A stretch of 21,703 nucleotides of DNA from a virus. This document shows positions 1-19,103 of this stretch, one piece after another. How positions within the stretch are numbered: the stretch's first letter is position 1; each line of letters opens with the position of its first letter. The stretch covers positions 1 through 21,703 of the IMG/VR virus record IMGVR_UViG_3300036900_000394; one strand, given 5' to 3'. The notes below the pieces were generated by a model. It saw only the letters and a program-made list of their open reading frames with translations. It had not been told where the DNA came from and did no database searches. The position numbers and the translations under genes were made by a program.

Positions 1-1959
1 ACCTCCTGCGCCTGGGGCGCCGATATTCGCGGCTGAGCCCATCATGACCTGCTGCCCCGGCGGTGGCAACGCGCCGGCGCCGTTCGGCGCGGTGGCGAGT
101 GCGGCGAGGTCCGGGACCCCTCCTGCACCTGCCGCGCCGCCCTCGAAGACACCCGGAGCCGGGGTCTGCATGCCGTTCGGCCCCGCGCCTGGTTGTCCGG
201 GTAGGGTGCCCTTGGCAGCCAGCGCCTGGGCCTGTGATGCAGCGCCCAGGATGTCTCCTCGTCCTGCAAACTGGAACACCTGCTGGTCGAGCCACTTCTG
301 GTACTCATCGCTCTGGCGGATGCGGTCGCGCGCCTTGCTGCGGCGGATTTCGTCCGGATTGTTGCCGAGGTACTCGATCGCCTCGTCGCTACCCCACGTG
401 CCGGCCTGCAGCCGCTCATGTGCGTAGCGGGCCTTGATCAGGTCGTCGGTCGGCAGCTCCTGCTGCACCTCCCAGCGCACCTTGACCGGGCGCGCGAAGT
501 CGTCCGGACCCAGGCCGATGTAGCCGCTGCCGCTCCTGGAGTCCGAGCCGGTGTAGCCGACCCAGATCTTCTCTTTGACCTTGTTCTGCGCCAGGTCCCA
601 GAGTTTTTCCGACTGGCGCTCGAGCAGCGCCTGGATGTTGTTGACGATGGGTCCGACGCGGGTCCGCGAGTAGCTCAGCACCTGGCTGATGGCGAAGCCG
701 GCACCCTCCATGCCGCTGAGCGTGGTCACGCGCGGCGACTCGAGCTCGCGGATGGCGTTGTCGATCAGCTGCATGTGCTTTTCGAGCGTGGCCGCGTCGG
801 GGTACTGGATGCGCGCGAGCTGGCGACCAGGGCCCAGGTTGATCACCTCGCCGGGCAGCGGGCCAGGATCGCGATCCCGCGGCTTGCCGTCGTCGCCAAT
901 GACCGGCGCCGCGGTCGAGTCGCCGTACGTCACCAGCGGCGACAGCAGGTCGCGCGCGACGTACTGGGCGTGCATCGCCCTGAGGTACTGGCGGTACTGC
1001 ACCAGCCAGAGCTTCGTCTGCGAGACGCCCCAGCCCACCTTGCGGTTGCGCCAGTGGTTCATCCACAACCCCGGTGCGAAGTCGTAGGGGATGAAGCCGT
1101 AGTTGTGCTTGAACTGCTTCACGATCGCGCCGGTCGGCTCGGACTTGTAGTTGGTGCCGGTCACCGCCCACGACGCCCAGGTCTCGTCCCAGTGCTCGAT
1201 CATGGTGACGCTGGTCGGCAGGATCGGCCGACCAGAGGCGCCGTACGCATTGCTGGCCTGCGACTGACCCATCTCCTCGGGCACGATGTTGCCGTCGCCG
1301 TCGACGCTGAGGCGGTAGCGGCGGAACGTGGTGCGCACCGGGCGGTCGGTGACCTCGAGCACCTCGGCGATCCTGCCGCCCATGTAGTCGGGGTACACCG
1401 CGCGGGCGTCGCAGAACTCCCAGGCGAACGGCGGGCCGCACGCCTTCTTTACGTCCTCGGTGGCCTTGTCGTAGTGGGCCCACGCCTCGGCACTTTCGCC
1501 TGGGTTGGGCACCGGGTAGGCGTAGCGCTTGTCCCAGGCGTCGGGCAGGAACAGGATCTTGGCCCACGCGCCGCCGTCGTTGAGCGCCGCGTCGGTCACA
1601 AAGGTCATCGTGTCCGCGCCAGGCGTCCTCGAGCCGCAGGACCAGAGCGTCTCTTCGGTCCAGTGCTCGCGCTGGGAGGCCGCCGTCTGCGCCGTGTCGC
1701 TTTCACCGCCGTCCAGGTGCAGCTTGGGCCGCTCGAGGGTGAGCATCGCCGTCTGCTGGAAGGCTTCCTCGCTCACGTCCGGGTCGCGAGGGTCGACGTT
1801 GACGAGGGTGTACTTCTCGTCGGCGCCCATCATGGCCGGGATGCGCATCTCGCGCTGGGCGCGCATGGTGTCGATCTGGACATCGTCGCGACGGTAGCGG
1901 TCATACATCTCCGTCTGGAGTTCGGAGAGGTACGACGCGCTGGGCGGACGATCAGCCAC
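1..1959 (-). CDS. Phage portal-like protein (partial, runs off the left edge)
   Basis: Reading leftward from a GTG at 1959, the frame stays open for 653 codons to the window edge, so the C-terminus is missing. The protein starts MADRPPSASYLSELQ. It has an acidic, Trp-rich middle (HWRNRKVGWGVSQTKLW, LPGEVINLGPGRQ) and then a helical segment with ESPRVTTLSGMEGAGFAISQ, the portal-like 'clip and stem' pattern. The tail is rich in Gly, Ala, Pro and Gln. Portals form the dodecameric DNA channel at the capsid vertex and dock the terminase. Placement downstream of the terminase genes supports the call, although a two-gene cassette separates them. GTG is the only usable start after an in-frame TGA; its Shine-Dalgarno sequence is weak. 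The long open frames on the other strand and in the neighbouring minus frame here are compositional shadows. The portal call rests on motif pattern and context, not on a search. Confidence 0.72.
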   Translation of the reverse strand, partial: MADRPPSASYLSELQTEMYDRYRRDDVQIDTMRAQREMRIPAMMGADEKYTLVNVDPRDPDVSEEAFQQTAMLTLERPKLHLDGGESDTAQTAASQREHWTEETLWSCGSRTPGADTMTFVTDAALNDGGAWAKILFLPDAWDKRYAYPVPNPGESAEAWAHYDKATEDVKKACGPPFAWEFCDARAVYPDYMGGRIAEVLEVTDRPVRTTFRRYRLSVDGDGNIVPEEMGQSQASNAYGASGRPILPTSVTMIEHWDETWASWAVTGTNYKSEPTGAIVKQFKHNYGFIPYDFAPGLWMNHWRNRKVGWGVSQTKLWLVQYRQYLRAMHAQYVARDLLSPLVTYGDSTAAPVIGDDGKPRDRDPGPLPGEVINLGPGRQLARIQYPDAATLEKHMQLIDNAIRELESPRVTTLSGMEGAGFAISQVLSYSRTRVGPIVNNIQALLERQSEKLWDLAQNKVKEKIWVGYTGSDSRSGSGYIGLGPDDFARPVKVRWEVQQELPTDDLIKARYAHERLQAGTWGSDEAIEYLGNNPDEIRRSKARDRIRQSDEYQKWLDQQVFQFAGRGDILGAASQAQALAAKGTLPGQPGAGPNGMQTPAPGVFEGGAAGAGGVPDLAALATAPNGAGALPPPGQQVMMGSAANIGAPGAGG

Positions 1960-1985
1960 GACTCTGGGGCCGAAGTGTAACGCGA

Positions 1986-2010
1986 TGTTTCACGCCGAAT
2001 GTTTCACGCC
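1986..2010. repeat. Two direct copies of TGTTTCACGCC (parS half-site-like)
   Basis: TGTTTCACGCC occurs at 1986-1996 and again at 2000-2010, a 14-bp period, in the 61-bp gap between the stop of the ParB-domain gene and the portal start. TGTTTCAC is exactly one half of the classical chromosomal parS palindrome (TGTTTCACGTGAAACA). The second half is absent in both copies, so neither is a complete parS. The position next to a ParB-domain gene makes an operator or binding role possible, but this is inference. Confidence 0.4.
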
Positions 2011-2020
2011 GGCCGCGGGG

Positions 2021-3535
2021 CTATTTCATTTCGGCAGCGTACTTCCGCGGCTCAAGCACGTCGCGCTGCAGATAGCGCATGTGGAACACGTCGGCGACGT
2101 GCAGCGGTTGGTGATCTGGAGAGCCGGGGTATTCACGTTTGGGCTCATACAAGTTGCTCTTGTGGTAGACCCTCGCTCCCACCAGCTGGGCCTGATGTTC
2201 GAGATCGGCGACCCACGACAGTGGTGGATGCCACGCAGGCGTTTCGCTCGAAGCTGACGCACCACCAATTGCCAACCAGTCAAAGTGCTCCAGGTGCTCG
2301 AACTGGAGGGGCTCGAGCAGGGGCTCAATACTCAGCCACCGTACGCTCGCTTTGACCTTGGCGAAAGCGTCCTCTGCCAACTTGACGCGGGCCTGCGCGT
2401 CCACGGTCGTGCCCACCCAGGCGTTGTCGGGAAACTCGAACTCAGCCAGCCGTTGTGGGAACTTCGTCAGAAACAAGAAGTTCCACTGAGGGTTGTCGCG
2501 GACGACCTCGAGTACCCCATTGATCCACTCCTGCGGCACCCACCGTCCAAAGAGGTCGGCCATGCTGCACGTGAACACATTGCGGTACCCGATCTGCGTG
2601 GAGGCCTCCGACGGAACACGGGTGTTTTTCGGCGCACTCAATCTCTCAGGCAGAAACGTTGGCTCGAAGCCTTGTGGATAGGCAGCAATGCGTCCACGAC
2701 CGAGCGCAAGGTCGCGAGCGTAGCAGTACGAGCAATCGTGTTTGCATCCGGTGACTGGATTCCACGACCACTGCGCCCACTCGATCTTCGTCGTCGACTG
2801 CTCATTGAATTTGATGTCAGTTGACCGCGGGCGCTCCAATTGACTGCGCTGTTCGGCAGCCGACATCGCTCGCCAGGCAGAGAGGGTCAGCAGCGGGTAA
2901 GCGTCATTCTGCGCGGGTGCTGCCTCGGGCTTTGTCAGCAGTCCCCATGCTTGAGCCATGCGATGGGCGGCGTCGACGCTCTTGCCGTTCAGTTCGGAGC
3001 GCAGGTCCTCCGCCATCTCTGCGCCACCACGGGCCTCGAGTCCGTCGATTGCCTGAACGACATCGGCACCCTTCTCCATCGTGCGCGACTTCCGACCGAC
3101 TCTGTCCGCGGCGAACTCACTCGCTTCGCCCTTCCTCGCTTCCCGCAAATTTGCGGGAAGCGAGTTATTTAGGGTCGCCTGGCGCTGTCGCGCGAACCAG
3201 CTCTCCACTTCGCGCCACACCATGTACTCACGCACGGTCTGCTCTTCCGTTTTGACCCGTTGGCGGTTGTGTTCAAGCAACGCCCTGAGAATTTCGTTCT
3301 CGTCATCGCTCCAGAATTCGATGACCGGTACTTGCTCTAGCCCTACGCGTCTGGCCGCATGCCAGCGGCGGTGACCCGAAACGATCAGTCCATCACGGGT
3401 GACGACTAATGGATCCATCACACCGTGCGCTCGAACGCTAGCGATCAGACCGTCATCCGCCTTATCGCCGTAGATTGCCTGGTTTTTGGGATGGGGTCGC
3501 AATGCGGATACGTTGCGCAATTCGAGTTCAGTCAT
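2021..3535 (-). CDS. ParB-like domain fused to a three-Cys-motif (Gp37/Gp68, DUF5131-type) protein
   Basis: The product has 504 residues. Residues 1-75 are a ParB/sulfiredoxin-type N-domain: RPHPKN near 13, then VSGHRRWHAA at 52-61. Residues 80-200 continue as in ParB-like phage proteins, with an HTH-like stretch RVGRKSRTMEKG near 145. From about 245 the protein becomes a Gp37/Gp68 (DUF5131) domain with the hallmark WNPVTGC and a CxxxCxxC cluster at C264, C268 and C271, spaced as in radical-SAM iron-sulfur sites. Family members of this second domain occur next to a partner protein, and that gene lies directly upstream here. I chose the ATG at 3535 because it overlaps the upstream stop (ATGACTGA, 8 bases) and is where ParB similarity begins; a longer frame exists to 3616. 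By eye the gene is less GC-rich than the phage around it. Chemistry and substrate are unknown; nucleic-acid modification is a plausible inference only. Confidence 0.85.
   Translation of the reverse strand: MTELELRNVSALRPHPKNQAIYGDKADDGLIASVRAHGVMDPLVVTRDGLIVSGHRRWHAARRVGLEQVPVIEFWSDDENEILRALLEHNRQRVKTEEQTVREYMVWREVESWFARQRQATLNNSLPANLREARKGEASEFAADRVGRKSRTMEKGADVVQAIDGLEARGGAEMAEDLRSELNGKSVDAAHRMAQAWGLLTKPEAAPAQNDAYPLLTLSAWRAMSAAEQRSQLERPRSTDIKFNEQSTTKIEWAQWSWNPVTGCKHDCSYCYARDLALGRGRIAAYPQGFEPTFLPERLSAPKNTRVPSEASTQIGYRNVFTCSMADLFGRWVPQEWINGVLEVVRDNPQWNFLFLTKFPQRLAEFEFPDNAWVGTTVDAQARVKLAEDAFAKVKASVRWLSIEPLLEPLQFEHLEHFDWLAIGGASASSETPAWHPPLSWVADLEHQAQLVGARVYHKSNLYEPKREYPGSPDHQPLHVADVFHMRYLQRDVLEPRKYAAEMK
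3135..3164. repeat. Perfect 30-bp palindrome inside the ParB-fusion coding sequence
   Basis: CTCGCTTCCCGCAAA (3135-3149) is followed at once by its exact reverse complement (3150-3164), centred on AATT. Symmetry stops at both ends (C outside on the left, T on the right). On the coding strand it encodes about residues 124-133 (SLPANLREA) of the ParB-like linker, so it adds no insertion or frameshift. It could form a long hairpin in RNA or a cruciform in DNA, or be a dimer-binding site. Chance occurrence of 15 consecutive matched pairs at a given position is about one in 4^15. Confidence 0.9.
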
Positions 3536-4448
3536 CGAACAGTCCTCGCTGCAGGCGACGTTGCCTTTCGGCCTTCGTGCTCTGCAATCTGTCCAGCCGT
3601 TCCATGCCAGTCTCACTGTCCAGCGCGACGAATCCCCGCTCTTTTAGAACTCGCATGGACGGGTTATTTGTGCCGTACAACCACGTCCACTGGTAGTTGC
3701 CCCGTAACTGTGCGAGTTGCCACGTCGTCTTCTTGAATCCCGCCCGAATCTCCTGGATCGTCGCCTGCGCGTCCCGACGCCAGGGCCACTTACTCATAGT
3801 TCCCGGAAGGTGCAAAGCGATGTCGACCATCTTGAGTTCGGGGCGCCGTGCGACACTGCGGATTGCTGGGTCGTCGAACACCCTGTTCAAATCCACAATC
3901 ATCAACCCGGGCGTCCACGGGCGGACGTTGTCCTCAATCCAGGGCTCCGCGCGCTGACTGACCGAACCTTCCAGCAAGTCAATGCGCTGCGGATTGACGT
4001 GCAACTGTCGAACCACGGTTGCGAGGTGCCCCTCCAGTTGTTGGATTACGTCCGGGTTCTGCTCGACCAGGGCGAGCTGGTACGGCAACCGATAACGCAC
4101 TACAGCGTCCAGCAGCTGAAGTGGACTCCCGACGACGAGCTGTATGAGTCCGTGGTCAAGCGGGCAGGGATAGACGCCACTGCCTGCAGACAAATCCATG
4201 CCGCGGAAGTCCAGGGCCGGCTTGCCCACACGATGCCTGCCGCGATTGATATTGGCGCTGATTGACGTCACGACGTCGATGATCCGGAACAACTCCCAGA
4301 GCTTTTGCGGCGTCGCGTCCGACCTACCCACGACCAACCGTCCATTCTTCTTCGGGATTGGCATAGGGGTGAGGGGATCGATTCCGAGGCGGATCAAGAG
4401 CTCGTAAAAGAGCGCCGCAACCCGGCTGCTGCTAGGCTCAGAGGGCAT
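3528..4448 (-). CDS. tcmP: Three-Cys-motif partner (TcmP-like), methyltransferase-like protein
   Basis: The product has 306 residues from the ATG at 4448, which has AAGGAG 10 bases upstream. An ATG at 4457 lies only one base from that site and is less likely. DLSAGSG at about residues 85-91 resembles the glycine-rich motif I of SAM-dependent methyltransferases, and LALVEQNPDV about 40 residues later fits the acidic end of the second strand. MIVDLNRVFDD and MVDIALHLPGT follow as in TcmP proteins, and a basic C-terminal tail ends LFDD. TcmP proteins are known mainly as genomic partners of three-Cys-motif proteins. Here the stop overlaps the ParB/three-Cys start by 8 bases, so the two are probably translationally coupled. 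Methyl transfer is inferred from the motif only; no target-recognition domain is visible. Confidence 0.7.
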   Translation of the reverse strand: MPSEPSSSRVAALFYELLIRLGIDPLTPMPIPKKNGRLVVGRSDATPQKLWELFRIIDVVTSISANINRGRHRVGKPALDFRGMDLSAGSGVYPCPLDHGLIQLVVGSPLQLLDAVVRYRLPYQLALVEQNPDVIQQLEGHLATVVRQLHVNPQRIDLLEGSVSQRAEPWIEDNVRPWTPGLMIVDLNRVFDDPAIRSVARRPELKMVDIALHLPGTMSKWPWRRDAQATIQEIRAGFKKTTWQLAQLRGNYQWTWLYGTNNPSMRVLKERGFVALDSETGMERLDRLQSTKAERQRRLQRGLFDD

Positions 4449-4471
4449 CGAGGGCATACTCCTTGGTGTCA

Positions 4472-4502
4472 GGCCGCCGGCTGCGGGCGCAGCGCGGCGG
4501 CC
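4472..4502 (-). other. Strong GC-rich stem-loop ahead of the TcmP gene
   Basis: GGCCGCC at one end pairs with GGCGGCC at the other, and an inner CTGCG/CGCAG stem closes a short loop. The element lies between the terminase stop (4539) and the Shine-Dalgarno of the TcmP-like gene. No T-tract follows in either direction, so a simple intrinsic terminator is unlikely. An attenuator, an RNA processing site or a cassette boundary are all possible. Confidence 0.45.
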
Positions 4503-4538
4503 AGTAATTTTATGCGGCCCCACGCTGCTCGTGGCCGT

Positions 4539-5957
4539 CTACCGGCTAAACGCATAGCTGCTCCTGGTCGTCTGGGTCTCGGTACTCGCCGCGGCCCACG
4601 CCAGTGCCAACGCGATCACCGTGTCGTCGTGCTGACCCGACGGCGCGCCGTACCTGAGCATGCCTGACGGCAGCCGCTCCACCTCGTACGACTGCAGCTC
4701 GCCGGTCTGCACCGTGTCGTCCAGCAGCGCCAGGTCGCCGTTCTCGATTGCCACGCTCAGGCCCTGCACCACCGCGGCCTTGGTCGCGTTCGTCGACCAC
4801 CACGGCTGCACCGGCAGCGGGCGGCGGTTGTCGCCGTACATGCGGCCGTAGCCCTGCTGCAAGCGCTCGACGAGCGGTTGGCCCAGGGCGTTGGCCTCGG
4901 CCAGGACGACACGCGGCTGGTACAGGTCCGCCCAGCGATGGAGCCGCTCGGTCTGGAACTCGAAGTCAATCTGGGTGAAGCGGTCCATGGCCACCTGCTG
5001 GTAGGTGCTGGCGTCGACGACGCTGAACACCGTGAAGTCGTTCGAGCGGGCCCAGTCGCAGCCGATGACGTACGTGTGGCCGCGCTGCGGCGGCTGTGGC
5101 TCCAGGCGCGCCACGGCCTGCACGCCGCGGAAGACGCCGGAACCCTCGACCTCCAGGAACTGGGCCAGGAACTCCTGGGCGTAGATCCGCTCCGGCAGGG
5201 CGCGCCGCGCCGCCTCGAGCTCAGCGGGCTTGATGTACGGCGATGCGGATGACGGCATCTGCCACGAGCGCCACTCGGGCTCCAGCTCATCCTGGCCGAG
5301 CTGATACAGGCGGTGAAAGAAATTCAGGCCCTTGGGCGTCGACAGGAACCACGCGCCGCCCTCGAGCACGCTCAGCGTCGGGCGCAGGCTGGCCTGCCAC
5401 ACGTCCTCCAGGTTGCGCACCATGGCCGCCTCGTCGACGACGATCAGTCCGTAGCGCCGCCCGCGGCCGGCGTCCTCGTCGTCGAGCGACCAGCAGTCGA
5501 CGCTGCCGCCGCCGCGCAGGTCGAGGACGTGCTGCTGCTCGGATTTGCCGTTGGTCACCGGCTCGAGCGCGAGGCGCAGCGCGCGCCAGACCTGCTCGAG
5601 ATACTTGTAGGTCGGCGCGAACCAGGCGGTCGGCTGGCCCTCGGCCGCGGCGCGCGCGAGGCGGTCGATGCCGAGCGTGGTCTTGCCGATCTGGCGGCCG
5701 CAGGCGGCGACATTAAAGCGGCGCGCCTCACCGATCATCGTTTGCTGCGCCGCGTGCGGCGTCGGCAGAGCCAGCTGGGAGTTCGTCGGGACTTGGGTCG
5801 ATGGGGCGGAATCCTGCGAGAAGTCGAATGAGCGTGTCCCGCTCGGTCCCCAGTAGCGCGGCAACGTCTCCGGCGGATTGCCCCTGAACGTAGGCAGCGG
5901 AGGCGGTCGCTTGAAGCTGAGCGCGAATCGTCGTGATGTGCTCGGCGACGAGGTCAA
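4539..5957 (-). CDS. terL: Terminase large subunit (ATPase/nuclease packaging motor)
   Basis: The product has 472 residues from a TTG at 5957. It shows the adenine-binding Q-motif region PHAAQQ (about 68-72), Walker A GRQIGKTT (87-94), Walker B LIVVDEA (D175, E176) and the coupling motif STPKG. The C-terminal RNase-H-like nuclease has GCDWARSNDF, LAEANALGQ and HDDTVIALA carrying its acidic residues. It cuts and pumps concatemeric DNA into the prohead. The start is uncertain. The first ATG is at 5738 (ATGATCGGTGA overlapping the upstream stop), but that would remove the Q-motif. The TTG at 5957 has GGAGG nine bases upstream but overlaps the small-subunit gene by 230 bases. The enzyme call is firm; the start is not. 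Confidence 0.92.
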   Translation of the reverse strand: MTSSPSTSRRFALSFKRPPPLPTFRGNPPETLPRYWGPSGTRSFDFSQDSAPSTQVPTNSQLALPTPHAAQQTMIGEARRFNVAACGRQIGKTTLGIDRLARAAAEGQPTAWFAPTYKYLEQVWRALRLALEPVTNGKSEQQHVLDLRGGGSVDCWSLDDEDAGRGRRYGLIVVDEAAMVRNLEDVWQASLRPTLSVLEGGAWFLSTPKGLNFFHRLYQLGQDELEPEWRSWQMPSSASPYIKPAELEAARRALPERIYAQEFLAQFLEVEGSGVFRGVQAVARLEPQPPQRGHTYVIGCDWARSNDFTVFSVVDASTYQQVAMDRFTQIDFEFQTERLHRWADLYQPRVVLAEANALGQPLVERLQQGYGRMYGDNRRPLPVQPWWSTNATKAAVVQGLSVAIENGDLALLDDTVQTGELQSYEVERLPSGMLRYGAPSGQHDDTVIALALAWAAASTETQTTRSSYAFSR

Positions 5958-6360: not shown

Positions 6361-6589
6361 GGACACGGCTGGGCGCCAGAACGCGCCGATGGCGCCAGAT
6401 TTCGCGCATCAATTTCGAGCGATCTTCGCGCACCATGCCGCGATCGAAACGCACCTGGTCGGAGCGGGTGTACTGGCCCGCGGCCTCGAAGGCGTCGGCG
6501 AGGTGATCGAGCCGCACCATCTCGACGGCCAGGGCGTGGCAGCGTTCGCGGGCCGCAAGGTACCAGTCGGCGCTGAGCGTGGTCGTCAT
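6353..6589 (-). CDS. Hypothetical helical protein, 78 aa
   Basis: The product is predicted to be all-helical by eye (ARERCHALAVEMVRLDHLAD, then FDRGMVREDRSKLMREIWR), with many charged residues and no cysteine pair or membrane segment. The start overlaps the replication-protein stop as ATGA and the end overlaps the next start by 8 bases, so it belongs to the same transcript. No function recognised. Confidence 0.62.
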   Translation of the reverse strand: MTTTLSADWYLAARERCHALAVEMVRLDHLADAFEAAGQYTRSDQVRFDRGMVREDRSKLMREIWRHRRVLAPSRVHG

Positions 6590-7254
6590 GCTTCGGCTTC
6601 GGTTGGTGCCTTGGCCTTCGGGCAGTACGCCCAGTGCTCAGAGCCGGTTCTGGCGAAGTCTGGGCAGCATGCTGGCTCTCGTGGTGGCTCGGCTTTGGCA
6701 CTTCGCACTCGTGGCTTCGTCCCGTTCGTACTCAAATCGGGCGCCCCATTGGGGGGCGCGTCACCCCCTGCCTCGGCTGGGCCGAGGATAGGGGGCAGGG
6801 GGTACGAGCTACGAGAAGACGAAGAAGACGAAGAAGACGAAGAAGACGAAGCTACGAGACGGGCCGGGGGAGCACCTAGGTCCGGCTCCGGGTCCGGCTC
6901 CGGGGTTAACTCAGGTCCGGCTTCGTACCCCTCCGGTGCGGGTATCACCGACGCGTCTTCGCGCGGGTGGGGATGCTGGTGCTTGCGCCAGTTCTGGACC
7001 TGGATACACCGCTCACCACCGGATTGGTAGCGCTGAATGAACCCACGGTCCGCCAGCTGGTCGAGCGCCTTGTCGACGTTCACGTGGTCGTATGCCAGCA
7101 GCTCCGCCTTGAGCTTTTTCGGACGGTCCAGAAGACGGCCGTCGCGATCAGCTACGGTCCACAGTCCGGCGAAGAGCAGCCGGACCACGGGCTGCAACTC
7201 ACCGAGTGAATCGTTCGTGAAGAAGCCCGGCCGGATACTCCGTGTGCGCGCCAC
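6586..7254 (-). CDS. Phage replisome organizer-like protein with a Ser/Glu/Pro-rich tail
   Basis: The product has 222 residues from a GTG at 7254. Residues 1-90 match the N-terminal winged-helix domain of phage replication organizers: ARTRSIRPGFFTND, LLFAGLWTVADRDGRLLDRP, then FIQRYQ and IQVQNWRKHQHPHPR. Such proteins bind the phage origin and load helicase. After about residue 95 the chain becomes low-complexity: PEPDPEPD repeats, a run of 12 serines and a Pro/Gly stretch. It ends in a small Cys/His segment (ACCPDFARTGSEHWAYC) that may bind zinc. The low-complexity part is encoded by tandem repeats and flanked by hairpins. A frame extends upstream to 7512, but that part overlaps the neighbouring gene and has shadow composition. 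The ATGA overlap with the next gene places it in the early operon. Confidence 0.78.
   Translation of the reverse strand: MARTRSIRPGFFTNDSLGELQPVVRLLFAGLWTVADRDGRLLDRPKKLKAELLAYDHVNVDKALDQLADRGFIQRYQSGGERCIQVQNWRKHQHPHPREDASVIPAPEGYEAGPELTPEPDPEPDLGAPPARLVASSSSSSSSSSSSRSSYPLPPILGPAEAGGDAPPNGAPDLSTNGTKPRVRSAKAEPPREPACCPDFARTGSEHWAYCPKAKAPTEAEA
6741..6802. repeat. Adjacent inverted repeats within the replication gene
   Basis: GCGCCCC (6741-6747) is mirrored by GGGGCGC (6753-6759). CCCCCTGCC (6764-6772) is mirrored by GGCAGGGGG (6794-6802), with an inner CCTCGGC/GCCGAGG hairpin. Two strong stem-loops within 62 bases, next to tandem repeats and inside a replication gene, resemble the layout of a phage origin, though GC-rich coding DNA can produce hairpins by chance. 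Confidence 0.5.
6808..6859. repeat. Four tandem 9-bp repeats flanked by direct repeats
   Basis: GAAGACGAA is repeated four times without error (6815-6850). The array is flanked by GCTACGAGA on both sides (6808-6816 and 6851-6859). On the coding strand it encodes the poly-Ser run. Just beyond, TCCGGCTCCGGG is repeated twice (about 6881-6904) and encodes the PEPD repeats. The array may act as iterons for the protein it encodes, as in lambda O, or may be only a slippage-prone linker. Confidence 0.75.
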
Positions 7255-7267
7255 CTGCGTTCTCGCC

Positions 7268-7567
7268 CTAGACTTGCTCGCTCGAGCGTGTGCCGTGGCG
7301 ACGGCGCCCATTCGACGGAACGACCACTTCCTCCTCATCCATGTGACCGTTGGAACGGTCCTCCACCTCCTCGTCCTCCGCTTCGAAAAGCGGGCCCATC
7401 GACACCGTGCCCTCCGCCAGATTGACGACCAGGTCCTCGCCCAGCTGGGAGAACAGCCAGTCGCTGGGAATGTCGTGTGCCTCCAGATTGAGGCGGACCA
7501 CCGTGCGCACATCGTCCGCGCGTGACGGCGTGCCGCGTACAGCGGCGAGCCGAGCCTTAAATTGCAT
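7268..7567 (-). CDS. Hypothetical acidic protein, 99 aa
   Basis: The product starts MQFKARLAAVRGTPSRADDV. It has a mixed alpha/beta middle (VVRLNLEAHDIPSDWLFSQ, LGEDLVVNLAEG) and an acidic C-terminal half (EAEDEEVEDR, MDEEEVV). No known domain recognised. The ATG at 7567 is preceded by AAGGA about 10 bases upstream, one of the clearer ribosome-binding sites in this operon. The replication gene starts 13 bases after its stop, so the pair is probably co-expressed. Confidence 0.65.
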   Translation of the reverse strand: MQFKARLAAVRGTPSRADDVRTVVRLNLEAHDIPSDWLFSQLGEDLVVNLAEGTVSMGPLFEAEDEEVEDRSNGHMDEEEVVVPSNGRRRHGTRSSEQV

Positions 7568-7569
7568 CG

Positions 7570-7830
7570 CTATCGATTCCTTTCTAGGCGATCCCGACAG
7601 GTTCTCCAGTGAGACGTCGCCGTGCGCGTGCCGTCAGGCTTGATGTCGAAGGGACAGCGTCGATTGTTGGCGCGGGTGAAGCCCCACCAGATTGGCGCCC
7701 CACAGCCCGTCTGAGCGCAGCGCCGGGTCGGCGCCGAGCTGGCCAGCAGGATCTGGTGGGCGTCGTTCGGATAGATCCGCCACGCGTACTCTCGCTCGGT
7801 CTCGCCCTCAAGTGCTGGCGGCTTTGGCAC
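7570..7830 (-). CDS. Small putative zinc-binding protein, 86 aa
   Basis: The product has CAQTGCGAPIWW near the middle and a later RRCPF and HWRTCRDR, so cysteines and a histidine are spaced as in a small metal-binding fold. AYAWRIYP-like aromatic residues lie in the N-terminal half (YAWRIYPNDAHQ). The GTG start at 7830 has AGAGGG six bases upstream and overlaps the upstream gene by 23 bases. Similar small Cys/His proteins recur in this operon; the function is unknown. Confidence 0.65.
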   Translation of the reverse strand: MPKPPALEGETEREYAWRIYPNDAHQILLASSAPTRRCAQTGCGAPIWWGFTRANNRRCPFDIKPDGTRTATSHWRTCRDRLERNR

Positions 7831-13618: not shown

Positions 13619-13671
13619 CGCCAGTCTGCGACGGACGAGCGTCCAACAAAAAGTGTAAGGATGGGTCCAAT
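13619..13671 (-). promoter_or_regulatory. Three-block promoter-like element, copy A, ahead of the early operon
   Basis: Read leftward the blocks are ATTGGACCCATC (13671-13660), CTTTTTGTTGGACGC (13653-13639) and CGCAGACTGGCG (13630-13619), followed three bases later by the ATG. The copy at 14977-15029 has the same three blocks with identical spacing (41 of 53 positions identical by my alignment). Conserved blocks with diverged spacers argue for function. The first block carries a -35-like TTGGAC. The position for a -10 holds GTTGGA or GTTAGA, not a TATAAT match. Confidence 0.6.
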
Positions 13672-13712
13672 CTTGGGCTGGCCTGGCTCTTGCCTCTCAA
13701 GGGCGTGATACG

Positions 13713-14967: not shown

Positions 14968-14976
14968 CCCCGCAAC

Positions 14977-15029
14977 ATTGGACCCATCTTCAGCCTTTTA
15001 GTTAGACGCCGCCACGCCGCAGACTGGCG
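14977..15029 (+). promoter_or_regulatory. Three-block promoter-like element, copy B, ahead of the 49-aa ORF
   Basis: Blocks ATTGGACCCATC (14977-14988), CTTTTAGTTAGACGC (14995-15009) and CGCAGACTGGCG (15018-15029) lie directly before the ATG at 15032. The layout matches copy A in inverted orientation, so the two copies point outward from the regulator module at 13713-14967. Confidence 0.6.
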
Positions 15030-15031
15030 CT

Positions 15032-15181
15032 ATGGCCGACAAGCCCCCGCGGCAGGATCTACTCGATGAGCTCGCGCGCCTGTTCGCCGACGAGGTCCGC
15101 GAGATCCTGAGTCGGCCCGAGCAGAAGGCACCTCAACCCAAGGAGAGCGCGCCAGCGAGTTCAACTAAGGAAGGTAGGTAA
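15032..15181 (+). CDS. Small charged protein, 49 aa, tail-to-tail with the integrase
   Basis: MADKPPRQDLLDELARLFAD begins a short helix (EVREILSRPEQ), followed by a Lys/Pro/Ser-rich tail to TAA at 15179-15181. It is preceded by copy B of the promoter-like element, which supports it as a real gene, and its last 49 bases overlap the integrase 3' end on the opposite strand. Its size and position next to a serine integrase make it a candidate excision (directionality) factor or integrase regulator; no motif proves this. Confidence 0.52.
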   Translation: MADKPPRQDLLDELARLFADEVREILSRPEQKAPQPKESAPASSTKEGR

Positions 15182-16851
15182 TCCACATATCCGCGTGCTG
15201 ATATGTCGCTTGCACCCCTTCCTGACGCACCATTGCTGAAGATCAGTACGGGCCGCTCGCCATCCGGGTACTGCGTTCTCGGGTGTGGGCAATGGGCCCA
15301 CGGTGCCTCTGGCGTGACGCGCCGCTCGTCGATCAGTCGCGCGGTGTAGGACCGCAGGCGCCACTGACGCCCCCCACCGAACCCACGCGTCTCGATGCAC
15401 ACGTTCGCAAACAGCATCGTGTACACCCGCCCCTGGCGTTCTGGCGACATGCCGTCAATCAGGGCGATGGGGTTGCTCAGCAGCAGGTCACACACGGCCG
15501 CGACCTCCTCATCGTTGAGGCGAGCGTCCTCCTCGTCGACGACCTGCTCCTTAAGCGTGGCGATCTCCAGCTGCGCCTGGGTGATGCGATCCAGGAGCGC
15601 GGTGGCCTGCTGCAGCTCGGCGCGCTCCAGCATCTGCTGGCTGATGTAGGCGACCCGCTCCTCGAGAAACGCAAGTCGCTGCTTCGCGGGCGAGGGCGCG
15701 GAATGCTCCAGGAGGTTGGCACGGGCGCGCTCTGCGAGCCCCTGCGCGTCCGCCAGCACGTTCGGCAACTCCTCTCGCAACAGACGTAGCGCCACGAACT
15801 CACGAATCTTCTGGGGCCTTAGGCACGGTCGGCCGTCAGTCCCGCGGCCAACACCCTTCGCCGAGCACGCGTAGGTGCCGGCGCCGAAGCCGATCATTCG
15901 GGAGCCGCACGTCTCGCACTCGAGCACGCCGGGCAACGCTTGCTTGTTGCCGCTTTTCATCGTGCGCGTGTTCGCGGGCTTGTCGAACTTCCGCCGCCAG
16001 CGACGCACACGGGCTGGCTCCCAGTAGGCCAGATCGGGACGGAACTGCTCGAAGTCACGCGGCGCGCCGCTGGCGTCCAGCGCGAACTTGTCCCACACCG
16101 TTGAACGCTGCCTGGTGTGGACGCCGAACCTGAAGGTGCCCGTATAGATCGTGTTGCGCAGGATGTAGCGCAATCCGTACACCATCCAACGTGTACTCTC
16201 GCCGCCGCGGCCGCGGAACGCCGGCCGCGCGGGCCCCTCGGCGTTGAGACGTCGGCAGATTTCGGCCAACGAGTCGCACTCATCGAAGAGCCGCGCGAGC
16301 GCGTCCATGACGTGCTGGTGCTCGGGGTTCTTGGCGACGTGCTTCTTGTCACGGTCGTCGGCCACGTTGACGTAGCCGAGTGGCGTTTTCATGTAGTGGG
16401 GCTCCCGCTCGAGCTTCTTGAATGTCCCGCTCCAGAGCGTGTTGCGAATGTTGCGCCAGTCGAGGCCTGCGATGAAGCACTGGAACTGGAACTGCATGAG
16501 ATCATCGTCGAGACGCAGGTTGTACTCGCGGTCCCAGGTATGGAACTGGCCATGTGCCTCGACGATGCGCCGCGCGATCGTGCCGCCGTCAACGCCGAAC
16601 TCATCACGGGTGAGGCGCTTGAAGTCGAAAGCGGCGATGCCCTGGATCACACCGGCCTTCATATCGTCGAGCATCTGCATGGCGACCTTGCGCTTGGTCA
16701 GGTCGGACCCCGAGGTGCCCTGCTCGTCGTAGTAGCGGACCGTGTGGCCGCGCTGTTCGATGCGTGGCCCCAGGTCGTACTGCGCTTCTGAGCGGTAGTT
16801 GCCGACCTGCCTCGCGGTTGAATTGCGGATCAGGACACCGATTACACTCAT
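15133..16851 (-). CDS. int: Large serine recombinase (phage integrase)
   Basis: The product has 572 residues. The N-terminal catalytic domain has RNSTARQ with nucleophile S11, the GTSGSDLTKRKV loop, and FDFKRLTRDEFGVDGG with the conserved arginines. The recombinase domain follows (PLGYVNV, then IYTGTFRFG). A zinc ribbon is at CETCGSRM ... YACSAKG ... RPC, then a coiled coil (LAFLEERVAYISQQML, LLDRITQAQLEIATLKE). Large serine integrases recombine attP with attB and need a directionality factor for excision. The last 50 residues (from about NGASGRGASDIS) are unlike the rest and include an inverted repeat. ATG 16851 has AAAGGA about 14 bases upstream, rather far. It lies downstream of the XRE repressor on the same strand, so the two may share a transcript. 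Confidence 0.93.
   Translation of the reverse strand: MSVIGVLIRNSTARQVGNYRSEAQYDLGPRIEQRGHTVRYYDEQGTSGSDLTKRKVAMQMLDDMKAGVIQGIAAFDFKRLTRDEFGVDGGTIARRIVEAHGQFHTWDREYNLRLDDDLMQFQFQCFIAGLDWRNIRNTLWSGTFKKLEREPHYMKTPLGYVNVADDRDKKHVAKNPEHQHVMDALARLFDECDSLAEICRRLNAEGPARPAFRGRGGESTRWMVYGLRYILRNTIYTGTFRFGVHTRQRSTVWDKFALDASGAPRDFEQFRPDLAYWEPARVRRWRRKFDKPANTRTMKSGNKQALPGVLECETCGSRMIGFGAGTYACSAKGVGRGTDGRPCLRPQKIREFVALRLLREELPNVLADAQGLAERARANLLEHSAPSPAKQRLAFLEERVAYISQQMLERAELQQATALLDRITQAQLEIATLKEQVVDEEDARLNDEEVAAVCDLLLSNPIALIDGMSPERQGRVYTMLFANVCIETRGFGGGRQWRLRSYTARLIDERRVTPEAPWAHCPHPRTQYPDGERPVLIFSNGASGRGASDISARGYVDYLPSLVELAGALSLG
15185..15206. repeat. Inverted repeat in the 3' end of the integrase gene
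   Basis: ACATATC (15185-15191) and GATATGT (15200-15206) form a perfect 7-bp inverted repeat around CGCGTGCT. It lies inside the integrase C-terminal tail and just past the stop of the 49-aa ORF. It is a candidate part of attP or a terminator-like hairpin; neither is established. Confidence 0.4.
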
Positions 16852-18382: not shown

Positions 18383-18488
18383 CCAGTCGCTTAGAATGCG
18401 TGTTCGGATCAAAACGACCGCCGCGCTGCGGAAACAGCCGGCGGCCCGACACCGAAGGGAGATAGCCCTCGATGCATCAACACGCTAG

Positions 18489-18509
18489 CACTGGGCCCAC
18501 GGGCCAGTG
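18489..18509 (+). promoter_or_regulatory. Hairpin that includes the GTG start of the ClpP-like gene
   Basis: CACTGG (18489-18494) pairs with CCAGTG (18504-18509), with an inner CC/GG pair and a CACG loop. The last three bases of the stem are the start codon itself. No strong Shine-Dalgarno is present. Such a fold would limit initiation unless melted. The surrounding 124-base gap (18383-18506) otherwise holds only a 30-codon frame (18396-18488) that I do not call. Confidence 0.45.
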
Positions 18510-19103
18510 ACCATCGTCCCCAACCAGCTGCAACCAACTCCGGGTGGGACGGTTTACGTCTCGTTTTCCTCTGACGTCAACGCCCATTCAACAGAGAGCC
18601 TGCTGGCCATAATGGCCAACCTGGCCAACATCGGAGTGGCCCAGGTCCATCTGCTGCTCTCAACACCGGGCGGCAACGTGATGCATGGGATGAACCTCTA
18701 CAACGTGTTGCGCGCACTCCCCTTCGATCTGACCACGCACAACGTGGGTAACGTCGATTCAATCGGCAACACAGTCTTTCTTGCGGGCAGACAGCGCTAC
18801 GCCTGTGAAAACACGACGTTCATGTTCCACGGCGTGGGTCTGAACGCGATCGGCCAGCGGCTCGAGGAGAAGTCAGTCCGCCAGACGCTCGCGTCGATCG
18901 TGGCTGACCAGACCCGGATCGGGGCTGTCATTCAACGGCACACCAGCCTGACGACGAGACAGATCGCCGGACTGTTTCGTGAGCAACAGACCAAAGACGC
19001 GGCATACGCCGTTCGCTTCGGGATTGTTCACGAGATTCGCGACGTTGAGATCCCCCAGGGCACTCCTGTAATCGCGCTGGTATTCCAACGCCAGGGCGTC
19101 TAG
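18507..19103 (+). CDS. ClpP/SDH-family serine protease-like protein, 198 aa
   Basis: The fold pattern is that of ClpP: TVYVSFSSDVNA, then LLLSTPGGNVMHGMNLYNVL (the oxyanion-side SPGG and following helix), NVDSIGNTVFLAG with candidate nucleophile S85, and TTFMFHGVG with H108 in the place of the catalytic His. The third acid is not clear. The nucleophile setting (NVDSIG, not AASMG) is unusual, so the protein could be a divergent or host-interacting protease, not a true Clp subunit. Phage ClpP-like enzymes are usually prohead proteases beside the portal; this one stands alone between the switch operon and the lysis region, with lower GC by eye, which suggests an acquired accessory gene. GTG 18507 is the only start after an in-frame TAG. 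Confidence 0.8.
   Translation: MTIVPNQLQPTPGGTVYVSFSSDVNAHSTESLLAIMANLANIGVAQVHLLLSTPGGNVMHGMNLYNVLRALPFDLTTHNVGNVDSIGNTVFLAGRQRYACENTTFMFHGVGLNAIGQRLEEKSVRQTLASIVADQTRIGAVIQRHTSLTTRQIAGLFREQQTKDAAYAVRFGIVHEIRDVEIPQGTPVIALVFQRQGV

Follow-up and report, generated by a model that had tools for sequence, protein, structure and literature searches.

The stretch of DNA described here, referred to as the window, comprises all 21,703 nt of the viral record IMGVR_UViG_3300036900_000394 of IMG/VR and belongs to a soil phage. Between a terminase gene and a putative portal gene, it carries two adjacent genes on the minus strand. One of them encodes a TcmP-like protein, and the other a protein in which a DNA-binding head, formed by a ParB_N domain and a helix-turn-helix (HTH) region, is fused to a DUF5131 domain (PF07505, the three-Cys or Gp37/Gp68 family). 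DUF5131 and TcmP were already known as a widespread neighbour pair of unknown function; what is added here is the fusion to a DNA-binding head, the exchange of heads and partners, and a functional assignment based on predicted folds. The features of the fusion gene are the following (SAM, S-adenosylmethionine; SPL, spore photoproduct lyase):

2021-3535, minus strand: ParB_N-HTH-DUF5131 fusion gene, 504 residues, ATG start (Pfam, NCBIfam and PHROG matches; AlphaFold model)
3272-3502, minus strand: ParB_N domain, residues 12-88 (Pfam; ParB/Noc fold match; motif tally)
2948-3247, minus strand: helical/HTH part of the head, about residues 97-196 (PHROG 12047 match; KorB fold match)
2159-2794, minus strand: DUF5131 domain, residues 248-459, predicted SPL-like radical-SAM barrel (Pfam; match to the SPL fold)
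2723-2746, minus strand: cluster motif C264xxxC268xY270C271, followed by Y272 (Cys conservation; SPL pattern)
2567-2569, minus strand: C323, the fourth conserved Cys (conservation across DUF5131)

A first-pass annotation, made from the sequence alone, had proposed that a three-Cys protein is fused here to a ParB-like domain with an HTH-like stretch. This architecture was confirmed by a Pfam scan, in which both domains were found in a single open frame and above their cut-offs: ParB_N with an E value of 2.6e-10 (40.6 bits, cut-off 26.3) and DUF5131 with an E value of 1.4e-41 (143.1 bits, cut-off 28.9). The HTH stretch is covered by PHROG ParB profiles (PHROG 12047) that extend to residue ~184, and in the AlphaFold model of the fusion (mean predicted local distance difference test, pLDDT, of 90.7) residues 3-199 match the fold of KorB (Z 12.2), and the ParB_N domain that of ParB/Noc (Z 13.8). 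The ParB_N domain includes an EHNRQR motif; the GERR hallmark of partition ParB proteins, with its catalytic Glu, is absent, its place being taken by SGHRR in the window and by G[HR]xR in most of the fusions. The start codon was placed at the ATG at 3535, which has a better Shine-Dalgarno context than an in-frame GTG that is possible further upstream, at 3616. This ATG overlaps the stop codon of the TcmP gene (3528-3530) by 8 bp, exactly as had been noticed before.

Searches for relatives found 461 stretches in IMG/VR and 211 in GTDB, of which the 80 best per database were retained; loci or contigs compared with the window are labelled with L and a number. After removal of duplicates, the viral set contained 64 loci with an N-terminally extended DUF5131, 62 of them with enough upstream sequence. 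With 64 distinct viral fusions the architecture is not a one-off, and an assembly artefact was ruled out, since the same architecture is present in dozens of independent metagenome contigs and, as a full-length relative, on an annotated Streptomyces plasmid; an unnamed viral protein in BFVD also aligns with the fusion over its full length. The linkage with TcmP is tight: a TcmP gene lies directly upstream of the fusion in 54 of the 62 loci according to the first profile and in 5 more according to an iterated profile, that is, in at least 59, while the genes that precede the fusion in L063 (methyltransferase-like by eye), L041 and L075 were not identified as TcmP. The usual neighbours across the family are replication initiators, helicases/primases, YqaJ-type recombinases and DNA methylases; one plasmid copy is near a DNA adenine methylase, and gp69 of mycobacteriophage Sbash, whose host is M. 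smegmatis mc2 155, is near a DNA methyltransferase. In an M. intracellulare plasmid (L306, 4935-7245), a phage-type-like DUF5131 gene has no detectable TcmP and a DNA adenine methylase close by, which is a possible replacement of the partner.

The classical pairs of DUF5131 (PF07505) and TcmP (TIGR04474) have the same DUF5131 domain, the cluster motif and an adjacent TcmP-type partner (DUF5131 adjoins 11 of 12 classical TcmPs); however, their DUF5131 is bare, with ~250 residues, whereas that of the window has a DNA-binding part at its N-terminus. Likewise, the classical TcmP that was scanned for domains, a protein of 439 residues from a P. aeruginosa plasmid, has a winged HTH (PF22560) at its end, whereas the TcmP of the window is short. 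On a P. aeruginosa plasmid (L305, 5123-8287), an annotated site-specific integrase, a bare DUF5131 and a TcmP with the C-terminal winged HTH (PF22560) are found in a row, and this row of genes recurs on large Pseudomonas plasmids, as if it were a mobile unit. A search of the open-access literature returned no paper with the term 'DUF5131', and TcmP was found there only as an item in tables, in one case close to the Hna defence gene of S. meliloti.

The closest solved fold to the DUF5131 model is SPL (VIA Z 13.6 over 223 residues), followed by RlmN (Z 11.0) and viperin (Z 10.8). SPL is an enzyme that reverses a DNA lesion, and both SPL and RlmN act on nucleic acid. The CxxxCxxC motif, which had been read as a sign of radical chemistry, corresponds to C264-C268-C271 and is invariant in 69 related fusions; it is part of the pattern C-x3-C-x-Y-C-Y that is common to DUF5131 and SPLs. 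The window fusion has only four Cys (264, 268, 271 and 323), and the position of the last one is Cys in 139 of 146 DUF5131 sequences and Gly in the other 7; in this regard, the SPL of B. subtilis needs a fourth Cys (PMC3742179). The domain therefore models as a radical-SAM domain nearest to SPL, with the cluster motif in place, a prediction that agrees with the earlier proposal. At the level of sequence profiles, the Radical SAM family (PF04055) reached 14.5 bits in the window fusion against a cut-off of 29.5, and in the motif region only; the SPL profile (PF20903) gave no match to the window fusion at E values up to 1, and the DUF5131 profile found no relevant match in the PDB. SPL thus shares with DUF5131 the closest fold, the C-x3-C-x-Y-C-Y pattern and a fourth conserved Cys, but it has neither a ParB head nor a methyltransferase partner, and the two are not similar over their full length. 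These common features are what would be expected of an SPL-like enzyme that repairs lesions in phage or host DNA; nevertheless, exchangeable sequence-reading heads, a methyltransferase partner and an HNH companion are unneeded for repair and the SPL profile is unmatched, so that we regard this explanation as quite improbable.

The partner gene shows the following features:

3528-4448, minus strand: TcmP-like gene, 306 residues, predicted RlmJ-like Rossmann methyltransferase fold (TIGR04474; model; RlmJ matches)
4302-4304, minus strand: K49, candidate counterpart of RlmJ K18 (invariance; RlmJ mutants in PMC3814359)
4176-4196, minus strand: SAM-binding motif I, DLSAGSG, residues 85-91 (aligned with RlmJ DTHAGAG)
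3891-3893, minus strand: D186, counterpart of RlmJ D164 (invariance; alignment to RlmJ)

Of the families that had been named for the pair, PF07505 and ParB_N are found above their cut-offs; in contrast, TIGR04474, the sole profile matched by the window TcmP, stays below its own (E 1.3e-4; 22 bits, where the curated NCBI cut-off is 53). The match is clearer among the relatives, since 39 of 54 TcmPs match TIGR04474 (best E 5e-22), and a profile-profile comparison of this family with an annotated TcmP gave an E value of 3.9e-9. The sequence is highly variable across the family, and searches with TcmP alone found no relatives in IMG/VR or in phage records because the protein is too divergent; TcmPs were reached instead via the neighbourhood of the fusions. 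A TcmP sequence profile found no relevant match in the PDB. The AlphaFold model (mean pLDDT 90.0) is similar to RlmJ (VIA Z 15.0; Foldseek E 6.5e-10), and structures of the RlmJ family are its first nine Foldseek matches as well as its best VIA matches. RlmJ is the N6-methyltransferase of A2030 in 23S rRNA. The SAM-binding partner suspected before hence models as a Rossmann methyltransferase closest to RlmJ.

Alignment of TcmP with RlmJ using hhalign (E 9e-7) pairs D186 with D164. K49 and D186 are the only invariant residues among the 54 TcmPs (54/54 each), and K49 belongs to the first helix of the core, ahead of beta-1, a place comparable to that of K18 in RlmJ; the pairing of K49 with K18 comes from a low-confidence alignment, obtained only via the classical TcmPs. 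In RlmJ, mutation of K18 or D164 abolishes activity, both residues being needed for methyl transfer (PMC3814359). TcmP resembles RlmJ in fold, in motif I, in GSP(L) and D, and in the candidate Lys/Asp pair; it differs in motif IV, which is DPPY in RlmJ and lacks the Tyr in TcmP (DPNG in 26 of the 54 relatives, DLNR in the window), and in being tied to a radical-SAM partner, whereas RlmJ has an rRNA substrate. The DLNR sequence and the variability of the family would also be in line with a catalytically weak scaffold, in which case the fusion would be mainly a ParB/HTH repressor, and its radical-SAM part would be a sensor of redox state or SAM. We consider this to be the least probable of the explanations discussed here, since the invariance of K49 and D186 in 54 very different TcmPs, and that of the cluster motif in 69 fusions, speaks for catalysis.

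The heads of the fusions are mostly ParB-like, and profile comparison links the several subtypes of this kind. A second kind is an HTH-type module that starts with YxxIGxxLxxIRD, and a small number of additional types occur. When the head labels (ParB, YxxIGxxLxxIRD HTH or other) were mapped on a maximum-likelihood tree built from the DUF5131 core, 14 changes were needed, where the minimum possible is 2, and the well-supported branches alone force 9 changes for the ParB label. The six-member clade of the window (support 99/98) includes ParB and non-ParB heads, and between the window and L022 the cores are 76% identical and the heads, with 15%, unrelated. The partner is also exchanged: the core proteins of L017 and L018 are 95% identical and their TcmPs 20%, and the DNA similarity of these loci ends at the TcmP gene and returns upstream. 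In L051/L057 and L015/L023, similarity is found from the core onward only, while in L004/L067 the TcmP is kept (58%) and the head is swapped (18%). L024 has its unit in the same terminase-portal slot as the window; DNA similarity between both covers 287-2809, from the portal through the core, and begins again from 4600, in the terminase gene, so that the core is alike at the DNA level and both head and TcmP have been replaced. Such sharp breaks in similarity are not explained by fast evolution of TcmP alone. Head and TcmP are therefore swapped, separately or together, around a conserved core that is predicted to be a radical-SAM domain.

The role of a guide had been given to the ParB part, and this idea gained ground from the replacement of this head by HTH-type heads elsewhere, and from the observation that a phage DNA methylase has it too. 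Among annotated phage proteins, the one whose match spans most of the ParB head is a ParB-N6_N4_Mtase DNA methylase; such a protein of Streptococcus phage Javan316 (QBX26313) has the same kind of ParB_N head and is also encoded beside terminase genes, but its enzyme part is an N6_N4_Mtase, whereas that of the window is a predicted radical-SAM domain. The swapped DNA-binding heads, the head in common with a DNA methylase and the DNA-metabolism neighbourhoods led us to infer that the substrate is DNA rather than RNA. The alternative, that the pair modifies rRNA, tRNA or mRNA and that the ParB-like head is a nucleotide-binding switch or a transcription-coupled tether, would be in agreement with the RNA-modifying activity of the fold neighbours RlmJ and RlmN and with the standalone DUF5131-TcmP pairs of bacteria, which have no head. 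It seems unlikely to us, given the repeated exchange of heads for unrelated HTH-type modules, the neighbouring DNA-replication and DNA-methylase genes, and the winged-HTH domain (PF22560) that a classical TcmP has of its own.

The surroundings of the pair comprise two flanking genes and a leader:

4539-5957, minus strand: terminase large subunit, upstream flank (PHROG_2, E 9e-38; Pfam Terminase_6C)
1-1959, minus strand: putative portal gene, downstream flank (named by position only)
4425-4512, minus strand: leader of the unit, with a TAAAAT box, a hairpin, GACACC, AAGGAG and CCCTCGATG (common to L024, L014, L026 and window 18388-18492)

The location claimed for the pair, between terminase and portal, holds for the terminase, which is confirmed by profiles; the portal owes its name to position only, because 1-1959 has no sequence match in Pfam, PHROG or the PDB, even when a profile of 23 sequences was compared with the PDB. 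The lower G+C content noticed before was also observed, both in GC (0.599/0.598 for the pair versus 0.682/0.694 for the flanks) and in GC at third codon positions (GC3; 0.70/0.74 versus 0.89/0.91). In addition, relatives that are 95% identical over window 1-2009 and about 92% over 6372-7822 do not have the pair. The GC3 contrast and these pair-less relatives with near-identical flanks support the earlier view of an acquired cassette. Compared with those closest relatives, the exchanged block is 2010-5905; most of the terminase gene also differs, so this block is larger than the pair.

The leader has a fold z of -4.2. Copies of the leader are found in L024 (1608-1700), in L014 and L026 (both 3880-3974) and, on the plus strand, in the window at 18388-18492; across them a TAGAAT/TAAAAT box, a G+C-rich hairpin, GACACC, a purine-rich ribosome site and CCCTCGATG recur, and in L024 the hairpin keeps its pairing by compensatory changes. 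The copies stand before TcmP genes, except that at 18388-18492, which precedes a lone plus-strand gene (18507-19103). This gene is ClpP-protease-like by eye and sits in the other low-GC stretch of the window. A leader common to TcmP genes and to a second low-GC gene suggests independently expressed accessory genes; by analogy with the start-associated sequences of mycobacteriophages, it may mark accessory (moron) genes.

From all these data, we consider the chances to be evenly balanced that the pair is an acquired, separately expressed accessory unit of the phage and modifies selected sites in DNA through two steps that each use SAM. This proposal is supported by the SPL-like and RlmJ-like folds, the candidate catalytic residues, the exchange of heads, the ParB head of a phage DNA methylase, the neighbouring genes of DNA metabolism, the linkage with TcmP and the PADLOC listing of homologous pairs among candidate defence systems. 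In the proposed mechanism, the DNA-binding head (ParB_N and HTH here, others elsewhere) would take the SPL-like radical-SAM DUF5131 domain to the target DNA; TcmP would act on that target too, its likeliest site being an exocyclic amine, for instance adenine N6, and the radical-SAM enzyme would afterwards take a hydrogen off a base carbon, followed by rearrangement or substitution. The product would be a mark on phage or prophage DNA that shields it from host or rival nucleases, and the HNH protein, where present (26 of 62 relatives), could be the matching cutter, allowing discrimination between self and competitor. Several points weigh against this proposal. The structures of both the fusion and TcmP are predictions, and in the fusion model the placement of head versus core is uncertain (predicted template modelling score, pTM, of 0.65). 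The sequence similarity between DUF5131 and SPL is limited to the cluster motif, and in the profile alignment C323 falls one position away from the catalytic Cys of SPL (C141). With DLNR at motif IV, methyl transfer by the window TcmP may be altered or lost, and the unit of the window has no HNH gene as a cognate nuclease. RlmJ and RlmN act on RNA, and biochemical data for any DUF5131 or TcmP protein were not found in the literature.

A related possibility is that the unit serves temperate phages as a restriction-like or interference system, in which TcmP and DUF5131 would mark the phage's own DNA and a nuclease, either HNH or an activity of the ParB/Srx fold, would attack unmarked competitor DNA. 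In 26 of the 62 viral loci, a short HNH-like open reading frame (ORF) separates TcmP from the fusion, L071 and L027 encode HNH and TcmP as a single fused protein, and the TcmP and head alleles are swapped as specificity parts are; moreover, the window has a serine integrase gene (15133-16851), and the unit a promoter-like leader of its own. Homologous pairs are listed in PADLOC as PDC-M30 and PDC-M41, both of them candidate defence systems only. Their B components recognise the DUF5131 part (E 4e-40 and 6e-41); the A components give weak matches to some TcmP relatives and none to the window TcmP. Nevertheless, the units of more than half of the loci, the window included, lack an HNH gene, the nuclease activity is hypothetical, and the short HNH ORFs of L008 and L002 are below a Pfam match. 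For these reasons we hold this to be a minor possibility, although a somewhat better one than modification of RNA.

Returning to site-directed modification of DNA, a broader idea can be put forward only tentatively: these units could be modular, sequence-aimed machines, in which an SPL-like engine and an RlmJ-like methyltransferase make a novel base modification and are re-aimed by swaps of heads and partners. The swapping of specificity subunits in restriction systems is an analogue of this exchange. The swapping around one core suggests that specificity lies in the exchanged parts and predicts that chimeras would be re-aimed, and the fold assignments together with the conserved candidate catalytic residues name the mutants to be made: C264, C323, K49 and D186. 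If the product were a new modification of DNA bases, it would join the few known radical-made modifications of nucleic acids and the systems of phage protection or inter-phage conflict.

The insertion was thought to break an adjacency of terminase and portal genes. The pair does lie there; however, the slot itself is variable, since across 50 relatives with both genes 18 to 2810 bp separate the two and the interval holds diverse cargo, for example glycosyltransferase or ParB-like genes; the slot is an accessory-gene hotspot of this phage group. Only one of the 50, L024, has the pair in this slot. In L018, L022 and L025 the unit is elsewhere on the contig and the terminase-portal gap of the same contig is short. 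A fixed association of the pair with the slot was rejected, most fusions being located elsewhere. Relatives with cargo in the slot include L216, L208, L187, L185, L262 and L263; among the cargo are a family 2 glycosyltransferase (L187), a ParB-like gene (L216) and an HNH-like ORF (L208), and a recurring family, primase-like by eye, begins near DRWxIPxxLRxxxAWAxWxY. In L242, L253, L261 and L265 the DNA of the portal region is 87-96% identical and the terminase large subunit is almost unrelated, with only its first ~90 residues in common (34% identity), which points to a swap of the terminase.

A perfect 30-bp palindrome, CTCGCTTCCCGCAAATTTGCGGGAAGCGAG, is located at 3135-3164, within the codons of the linker between ParB and HTH (SLPANLREA), and could be a candidate binding site inside its own gene. 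Its 20-bp core was found in one other IMG/VR contig only (L321, 5254-5281), where it again falls in this linker, in a different ParB-like protein. The 16-bp core found no support as a widespread ParB site: it occurs in 15 contigs, by estimate about the number given by chance, and mostly outside ParB genes. Finally, a 57-bp imperfect inverted repeat (77%), at 13619-13675 and 14973-15029, surrounds 1.3 kb that adjoin the serine integrase gene and is possibly related to an attachment site or a terminator.

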